Source: Deferrivibrio essentukiensis (GTDB taxonomy: Bacteria > Chrysiogenota > Deferribacteres > Deferribacterales > Deferrivibrionaceae). From it: 64,000 nt of DNA. Below the pieces are notes generated by a model. It made no database searches, was not told the DNA's origin, and worked only from the letters and a program-made list of their open reading frames with translations. This document shows, piece by piece, positions 44,958 to 47,161 of this stretch. A program made the position numbers and the translations under genes. Each line of letters opens with the position of its first letter. Position 1 is the first letter of the stretch. The DNA lies in assembly GCF_020480685.1 (NCBI RefSeq), contig NZ_JAJAFU010000001.1, positions 124,001-188,000 on the forward strand. The letters run 5' to 3'.

Positions 44958-44960
44958 ATA

Positions 44961-44990
44961 AAAAAGGGGAATTACTTCCCCTTTTTTTTA
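44961..44990. terminator. Bidirectional terminator between ahcY and the selenoprotein gene
   Basis: AAAGGGGAA (44963-44971) and TTCCCC (44976-44981), then a T-run on the plus strand and an A-rich region that becomes a T-run on the minus strand. It ends ahcY and also covers the 3' end of the minus-strand small gene. Confidence 0.85.
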
Positions 44991-45130
44991 TCTTTCTTTT
45001 TTGCTTCCTTTTTGTATCGATCCTCGATACTGCATGAATCGGTAGCTCAGCCGCCACCTTTGAAAAGGCTTAAAACAATTATCAAGCCTATAAATAGGAT
45101 AAGGCCGATATACTCACTGTATTGGCTCAA
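44972..45130 (-). CDS. Candidate small membrane selenoprotein with in-frame UGA
   Basis: 52 codons on the minus strand, not found by ordinary frame calling because codon 28 is TGA (45049-45047). Start TTG 45130 has AAAAGGAGG (45144-45136), five bases upstream. The product is MSQYSEYIGLILFIGLIIVL, then SLFKGGG-U-ATDSC, then a Lys-rich tail ending KKKDKKKGK at TAA 44974-44972. One transmembrane helix, then GGGU and a Cys five residues further, an arrangement recalling SelK-type proteins. A SECIS-like hairpin follows the TGA (see 45014-45030). It lies 18 bases after the exported protein gene at 45149. If TGA is a true stop, a 27-residue peptide remains. The A-rich tail is weak evidence by itself. 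Confidence 0.5.
45014..45030 (-). promoter_or_regulatory. SECIS-like hairpin downstream of the in-frame TGA
   Basis: On the minus strand GTATCG - AGGAT - CGATAC, perfect 6-bp stem and 5-base loop with GG, beginning 16 bases after the TGA codon. Bacterial SECIS hairpins lie directly downstream of the selenocysteine codon with a small loop that holds conserved G and U. Confidence 0.5.
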
Positions 45131-45148
45131 AATTGCCTCCTTTTGATT

Positions 45149-47161
45149 TTATTCTAATTTAGTTATCTTCCTACTTAATTCAACCTTTTTGCCGTTAAGT
45201 GTCAAAACAATATCCATAAGGCTATTATCAAAGTTTACCCATGAAGGATAACCTAAATATAACAAAAGTTCATCATCTTCAGATAATTTCAGATTAAAAA
45301 GTCCATTTTTAGAATTGGCAATTTTTCCATTCAACAAGACAGCAGGCACAGGCAGAATTTTGTTTGGTACTGTTGACCAGTGATATTTGAATTTTCCGCT
45401 GAGAGATACTTCAATATCTGTTATTTCACCTTTTATCCCTTTTAATCTTATGAGTGTATCGGGCTTGCCATCACTTTTAATCTCTTTTGTAGTAGAAGCA
45501 AAATCATTTTCACTTTTATGAACCGTAAAATTAATTTTTTGTTCAGGTAAATCATTTTCAAAAGACTTTACTATAAATTTAGGCGCAATAGCTTCAATTG
45601 CTGTTTCAAGGGAAAATAATATTGTTTCTTTAAAGCTATATTCAGGTAGAAAACCTATGAAATAATCTTTTTTGGGTGACTCTATTTTAAATGAATATTC
45701 TTCAGGCTTCTCCGAATTTTTGATAATAATCTCCTCTTTTTTGGTAAGTATTAGCTTATTATCCCTGATTTCCCCCTCAAAAAGATATATGGGAGCTGCT
45801 GATTGCTTCATAAGTCCGGGTAATTTCGTAAGCATTAGCTCATATGAAATGTCCAATGGTGAAGGGTTGTATTTGTTTAACTTGAAATGGACAAGCTCCT
45901 TTATTTCATTTGAGTTAGTTATGACTAAGTTATTCTTTTCTATATTTTTAATATTGAGCTTACTATCTGCAATTATTTTTTCAAGAATAAGGTTATTTCC
46001 CACGAAAAAAGCTTTTTCTTTGATTTTACTATAAACTTCCCCGGTGATTGTCCCTTTTCCACCAAATCCAATAATTGTCCCGGTTATGTTGTTATCTTTT
46101 ACAACAAATTCAATCTTCTGATTACATTTAAATGTAGAGCCTTTTGGTGAGCAGTCCCTTACGAAACTCAAGGTGTTGTTATTATGTTTTATATTTGTAA
46201 GTTTATTTATTCTATCGCCAGATATTAAATCTCCTGTTAACTCTTCAAAATCTATTTTCACTATGGCATTTTCAGTTTTATGTGCCTGCTTTATTTCAAT
46301 TTTTGCCACTAAAGGCAACTTCTCTTGTTTGACCTTTTGAGATGGAAGTATGAAATTTTTTGTAAACTCTGTGTATTTTTTATTTTTAGCAGCTGTCTTT
46401 ATTTCAAAACGATACTCACCTTTTTCATCTGTTATAGTTTCATAACCGTAGCCTAAGAGGCTTAATTTGGCGTTAAAAACAGGGTTTCCCTTACTGTCTA
46501 TAACTTTCCCTTTGATAATTATTGTACCTACATCCGTATTTGTAGATACAATTTCTTCGGACAATTTATAGTCGTTATAAGAAAGCTTAATCTTAAACCT
46601 ATCAAGAAAAAACCTGTCTATGTTGGCGAGCATATAGTTTTTGACAATTTTATCAAAGTAGTCCGCAAACTCCATCAACGCAAAGCCATCGTCGGTTTTA
46701 ATACTAATTAAAAAATTCTTATTTAATATAAAAATATTATATTCTGCTTTGAGGGCTTTTAGTGAGATAGGATTGATTAATACAGTAGATTCTTCACCAA
46801 AATCAACTTCTCTTCTTACAGGAAGTTTGGATTCTTGTATTTTTTTATTGTATAAAGATTTTGCAACAGTCGGATTTTTTGCAAAGTAAATAGAAATATC
46901 GACAGCAAAGTTTGTATTCCTGTTTATCCCCAATATTTTTTCATTTTGCTCATTATAATATGTATATGTATTTGATAAAACAACATAATCATCATATCTT
47001 TTCTCCATTATACTTGTATAAAGCCATTTTTTATTCCCACCCTGCAGCTGGCTTGATTTTGGGAAAAAGTTGTACAGGTCATCAAGAGGGCCTGCAGAGA
47101 ATATCACAAAAGGAAAAAGGATAAAAAATATTAAACTCTTAAGCATAGGCCTTTTTTTCAC
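45149..47161 (-). CDS. Large exported protein with a carboxypeptidase-regulatory-like domain
   Basis: 670 residues with an N-terminal signal (about 1-22, PFVIFSAG). A carboxypeptidase-regulatory-like beta-sandwich lies at about 212-270: TIIIKGKVIDSKGNPVFNAKLSLLGYGYETITDEKGEYRFEI. The rest is beta-rich with many Lys and Ile and shows no family I know. Probably secreted to the periplasm or the cell surface. It is the first gene of a short minus-strand operon whose second member is the candidate selenoprotein. Starts divergently to amt. Confidence 0.75.
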   Translation of the reverse strand: MKKRPMLKSLIFFILFPFVIFSAGPLDDLYNFFPKSSQLQGGNKKWLYTSIMEKRYDDYVVLSNTYTYYNEQNEKILGINRNTNFAVDISIYFAKNPTVAKSLYNKKIQESKLPVRREVDFGEESTVLINPISLKALKAEYNIFILNKNFLISIKTDDGFALMEFADYFDKIVKNYMLANIDRFFLDRFKIKLSYNDYKLSEEIVSTNTDVGTIIIKGKVIDSKGNPVFNAKLSLLGYGYETITDEKGEYRFEIKTAAKNKKYTEFTKNFILPSQKVKQEKLPLVAKIEIKQAHKTENAIVKIDFEELTGDLISGDRINKLTNIKHNNNTLSFVRDCSPKGSTFKCNQKIEFVVKDNNITGTIIGFGGKGTITGEVYSKIKEKAFFVGNNLILEKIIADSKLNIKNIEKNNLVITNSNEIKELVHFKLNKYNPSPLDISYELMLTKLPGLMKQSAAPIYLFEGEIRDNKLILTKKEEIIIKNSEKPEEYSFKIESPKKDYFIGFLPEYSFKETILFSLETAIEAIAPKFIVKSFENDLPEQKINFTVHKSENDFASTTKEIKSDGKPDTLIRLKGIKGEITDIEVSLSGKFKYHWSTVPNKILPVPAVLLNGKIANSKNGLFNLKLSEDDELLLYLGYPSWVNFDNSLMDIVLTLNGKKVELSRKITKLE

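Follow-up and report, generated by a model that had tools for sequence, protein, structure and literature searches.

Selenoprotein surveys depend for the most part on homologues with cysteine or on conserved frames of greater length. The FeoB-associated Cys-rich small membrane proteins (PF12669) have a tiny N-terminal transmembrane helix, followed at the membrane surface by a Gly/Cys segment. SELENOK and SELENOS are defined by a Sec residue second or third from the C-terminus (PMC10650576). For bacterial SECIS elements (bSECIS), the published model sets a stem of 4-16 bp, a loop of 3-9 nt lying 16-37 nt from the UGA, a G within the first two loop positions and an energy of at most -7.5 kcal/mol (PMC13188914). 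None of the 119 prokaryotic selenoprotein families catalogued in 2026 has the layout described below (PMC13188914), and the reviews and the deep-Sep paper mention neither Deferribacterota nor such a protein (PMC13188914, PMC9312934, PMC12013277). The gene analysed here would thus found a new, apparently undescribed family of selenoproteins.

In the window (the whole 64 kb stretch of DNA that was analysed), the minus-strand frame 45130-44972 translates as LSQYSEYIGLILFIGLIIVLSLFKGGG-U-ATDSCSIEDRYKKEAKKKDKKKGK-TAA. It comprises 52 codons plus stop, starts with TTG and has TGA as codon 28. Along the frame, a hydrophobic helix is followed by GGG, the TGA, ATDSC, SIEDRY, a Lys-rich tail and the TAA. 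A sequence-only reading had proposed this frame as a small selenoprotein gene; the TTG start, the ribosome-binding site, the TGA at codon 28, GGG before it, ATDSC after it and the Lys-rich tail were all present as claimed. The features were assigned as follows, in the order of transcription.

45149..47161, minus strand: gene of a 670-aa secreted beta-rich envelope protein, upstream in the same presumed operon
45136..45144, minus strand: ribosome-binding site AAAAGGAGG, from the window sequence, with SD-like motifs in homologues
44972..45130, minus strand: coding sequence of the putative selenoprotein from TTG to TAA, with Sec as residue 28 of 52, assigned with homologues
45062..45118, minus strand: predicted single transmembrane helix, residues 5-23 (AlphaFold2), hydrophobic in 21/21 members
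45047..45049, minus strand: in-frame TGA (Sec28), with GGC directly before it in 19/21 members
45032..45034, minus strand: invariant Cys33 codon, U-x4-C here and U-x6-C in family f5
45014..45030, minus strand: putative SECIS hairpin GTATCGA-GGA-TCGATAC, overlapping the codons of S34-Y39 (SIEDRY)
44975..45013, minus strand: Lys-rich tail of variable sequence in the alignment of members, probably cytoplasmic
44960..44987, minus strand: bidirectional intrinsic terminator (12-bp) between this gene and the convergent ahcY, common to both

The TAA of the gene sits in the terminator loop (44960-44987). Both strands of the window were scanned for an SD motif and start, a TGA, about 20 further codons and, within 10-24 nt past the TGA, a perfect 6-bp hairpin; this site was the sole match. 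It is far beyond chance, because it is common to 20 further genomes. The one transmembrane helix of the sequence-only reading was recovered by AlphaFold2 (pLDDT about 90 over residues 11-20). GGG-U-ATDSC was placed in a loop, followed by a second helix of low confidence.

The hairpin with a GG loop that had been claimed downstream of the TGA was borne out at 45030-45014. It can be drawn as GTATCG-AGGAT-CGATAC (6 bp) or as GTATCGA-GGA-TCGATAC (7 bp) and starts exactly 16 nt past the TGA. The 71-nt stretch around it had a folding z of -3.6, and 0/200 shuffles were as stable. In position and form it fits the bSECIS model, as the reading had anticipated. The hairpins of all members have a 3-nt GGA loop with G first and 7 bp, at a distance from the UGA of 23 or 29 nt by the measure of that model; the TGA-to-hairpin distance is 16 or 22 nt. 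When the 50 nt following the UGA were folded, 20/21 members kept within the energy limit, the hairpin of G008 falling just above it at -7.4 against -7.5 kcal/mol. The hairpin DNA is identical in 20/21 genomes. The exception is again G008, where a single base change gives I35V and the pair is kept as G-U (stem GTGTCGA). The gene with this sole variant hairpin (G008:C85, L063) has a different neighbourhood and is located near a transposase-like ORF. Near-matches to the hairpin outside the gene (e.g. in G020, G001 and G005) were rejected, being in unrelated reading frames.

Homologues were searched at the protein level in 51 Deferribacterota genomes, which yielded 21 in five families. They are 46-58 residues long with a single transmembrane segment; their starts align and are preceded by SD-like motifs (GAGG before the G008 start). 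A profile built from the 21 members retrieved no further homologues from the 51 genomes. A wider search for relatives (385 genomes from 319 genera, at least 334 of them outside the phylum) matched only the same 21, and 103 genomes of a further phylum gave one chance match only. No relatives were found in viral contigs and plasmids. The scan of genome contigs was run with a single-sequence query, to which distant relatives may escape; 6 among the matches listed belonged to Deferribacteraceae, Calditerrivibrio and Denitrovibrio. Weak profile matches in G003, G011, G006, G027, G019 and G441 (the last from another phylum) were read and rejected as lacking the family anatomy. As judged from these searches, the family is so far known only from Deferribacterota. 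No member among the 21 matched NCBIfam at curated cut-offs or Pfam, and a sequence search of the PDB with family members gave no meaningful match. Homologues with Cys in place of the Sec, which the sequence-only reading had suggested looking for at position 28, did not appear in any searched genome (51 of the phylum, at least 334 of other phyla and 103 of the further phylum).

The simplest rival reading takes the UGA as a true stop, so that the gene would encode a 27-residue membrane peptide followed by an untranslated regulatory or SelB-binding hairpin RNA. It can draw on a frame that already has ribosome-binding site and transmembrane helix before the TGA, and on the hairpin being the best-conserved feature of the locus. 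Further, the Lys-rich tail is loosely conserved (amino-acid change exceeds silent change in most close pairs), so that conservation after the UGA rests on Cys and SIEDRY. Yet the in-frame TGA stands at the same place in 21/21 members and is never TAA or TAG; a sense codon occurs there in none. Homologues ending at the TGA were looked for, and none was seen: the frame continues in 21/21. Where members differ in length past the TGA, the reading frame is preserved (16 versus 22 nt to the hairpin), with the Cys at +5 in families f1-f4 and at +7 in f5. This Cys is invariant (21/21), and it is followed by SIEDRY in 20/21 members and SVEDRY in G008, so the conservation past the TGA on which the selenoprotein reading depended is present.

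SIEDRY is encoded by AGT ATC GAG GAT CGA TAC, identical at 125/126 codons across members, whereas identical residues before the TGA show a synonymous difference in 52% of comparisons. All 864 synonymous encodings of SIEDRY were enumerated: 2 give a perfect 7-bp stem, and only 1 of them has a loop starting with GG, which is the encoding in use. In this stem, the bases at third codon positions are paired with bases at the second positions of other codons. A silent change therefore disrupts or weakens a pair, and a compensating one changes the peptide. If the hairpin acted as RNA only, it could covary like the selD SECIS of the same genomes, whose stem varies with compensation, e.g. from TAGGTCC/GGACCTA to TAAGCCC/GGGCTTA. 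Since the selD SECIS covaries in the phylum, SelB does not demand the GTATCGA stem sequence there. A stem that is frozen exactly at the SIEDRY codons while the selD SECIS covaries thus argues that the amino acids are under selection together with the RNA, and selection on the SIEDRY amino acids is evidence for translation through the UGA. On these comparative grounds, the freeze is best explained by joint selection on peptide and RNA, i.e. by a translated UGA. A true stop accordingly appears highly improbable, also because loss of the gene follows the Sec machinery (see below), and we consider it very likely that the gene is a translated selenoprotein of a new family.

The complete set of selA, selB, selC and selD, without which the gene could hardly be read as a selenoprotein, was located in the source genome. 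selB and selA are adjacent on the same contig, about 37 kb before the window, and the tRNA-Sec (selC) has the anticodon TCA. selD itself carries an in-frame UGA (L049, G000:C4:65227-66135), and its hairpin has the same 7-bp/GGA form as the hairpin of the small gene. The selD loci L138-L159 likewise encode a UGA selenoprotein with a 7-bp/GG-loop SECIS covarying between families. The small gene is present in 21/23 genomes with UGA-type selD and in 0/28 others (Fisher p = 2e-12, uncorrected for kinship). The two remaining genomes, G038 (L101) and G050 (L099), have UGA-containing selD and selB without the small selenoprotein; they may have lost it independently, or the assemblies may be incomplete. 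Genus g6 and genus g15 of family f7 are both without selA; there the upstream gene runs straight into kdsA, and the selenoprotein gene has dropped out cleanly, without a Cys version in its place. Sec appears to be needed for function, because loss of the Sec trait went with loss of the gene and not with its conversion to Cys. G001 and G003 (L136, L137) belong to another class of the phylum; their selD has no UGA and they lack selA, suggesting a use of selenium other than Sec, e.g. selenouridine.

Alternatively, the locus might be a selenium-responsive leader: with SelB bound, stalling at the UGA or its readthrough would regulate an adjacent gene, and the product would be of little importance in itself. 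A tiny ORF with UGA and SECIS would suit such a role, and in family f5 it is soon followed by the start of the next gene, kdsA or one resembling hemW. In the window, however, a terminator and a convergent gene come next, neighbours differ between families (alaS is upstream in f2), and the peptide with its transmembrane segment and C-SIEDRY is conserved. We regard a leader as the least probable of the readings considered, marginally behind the true stop.

A third proposal leaves the selenoprotein as such in place and concerns its function: it could be a subunit of the adjacent 670-aa envelope protein. Both genes are co-directional and 18 nt apart in the window, and they adjoin in families f1, f3, f4 and f5. 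Family f2, however, has the selenoprotein gene without any homologue of the partner, the partner occurs in many Sec-less genomes from which the selenoprotein gene is absent (in Sec-less genera it directly precedes kdsA), and co-occurrence of both was not significant (Fisher p = 0.35, likewise uncorrected for kinship). A subunit role is therefore unlikely, though less so than either rival to the identity of the gene, and by its distribution the 670-aa gene would be a neighbour more than a necessary partner. Homologues of the 670-aa protein occur in 37/51 genomes of the phylum, and 21 columns, two Cys among them, are invariant in an alignment of 26 sequences. Against Pfam nothing exceeded the cut-off (a carboxypeptidase-regulatory-like domain was sub-threshold), and a fold search gave a weak carbohydrate-binding-module-like match. 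Reading a function of the selenoprotein from this neighbour was abandoned in view of the weak domain matches and the missing correlation with selenoprotein presence, and the neighbour gives no functional clue.

For the selenoprotein, the following mechanism is proposed. SelB with Sec-tRNA would bind the hairpin and insert Sec at UGA 28. The N-terminus would face out and the Lys-rich C-terminus would be cytoplasmic, because of the positive-inside rule. Sec and the invariant Cys could then form a selenol-thiol pair beside the membrane surface on the cytoplasmic face; U-x4-C and U-x6-C are not the classical CxxU/UxxC motif. That the pair carries out redox or metal chemistry, probably together with a larger partner in the membrane, has in our estimate about an even chance.

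A family of about 50 residues, apparently without a Cys form and unmatched in NCBIfam and Pfam, would escape standard gene callers and, if indeed Sec-obligate, would be invisible to selenoprotein searches based on Cys homologues. Bacterial selenoproteomes therefore probably contain more such small members. Demands of RNA signal and encoded peptide that together freeze the DNA can serve as a test for Sec readthrough that needs no proteomics. For selenium biologists, the family offers a membrane selenoprotein that is short, easy to test and present in genera that can be cultured. It could equally well be true or not that it is a lineage-restricted, Sec-obligate family lacking a Cys form, with SECIS and peptide locked to a single DNA sequence, which may help to maintain the Sec trait in these anaerobes.

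Compared with known systems, the family resembles SELENOK and SELENOS in its small size, one N-terminal transmembrane helix, glycines between helix and Sec, a probable N-out/C-in topology, a basic tail and Sec on the cytosolic side. Of the SelK-type likeness put forward by the sequence-only reading, the TM-Gly-Sec outline stood; the closer relation did not, as there was no SelK/SelG Pfam match, BLASTP to an approximate human SelK query sequence gave no match, and Sec lies well inside the protein, about 20-30 residues from the C-terminus. Unlike in SELENOK and SELENOS, the mid-protein Sec is followed by an invariant Cys and SIEDRY, the SECIS is bacterial and within the coding region, and sequence similarity is lacking. 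The comparison is thus an analogy only. The FeoB-associated proteins (PF12669) share a transmembrane helix and then a Gly/Cys segment, but no member matched their Pfam model. UGA-type selD of the same genomes has the same 7-bp stem, GG-starting triloop and Sec machinery; it is an unrelated protein, and its SECIS stem compensates whereas that of the small selenoprotein is frozen. With the 119 catalogued prokaryotic families the new one shares UGA, a SelB-type SECIS and a second redox-capable residue (Cys) near Sec. It differs from most of them in that no Cys homologue was found, and from all in its single-TM, 46-58 residue layout with GGGU...C-SIEDRY.
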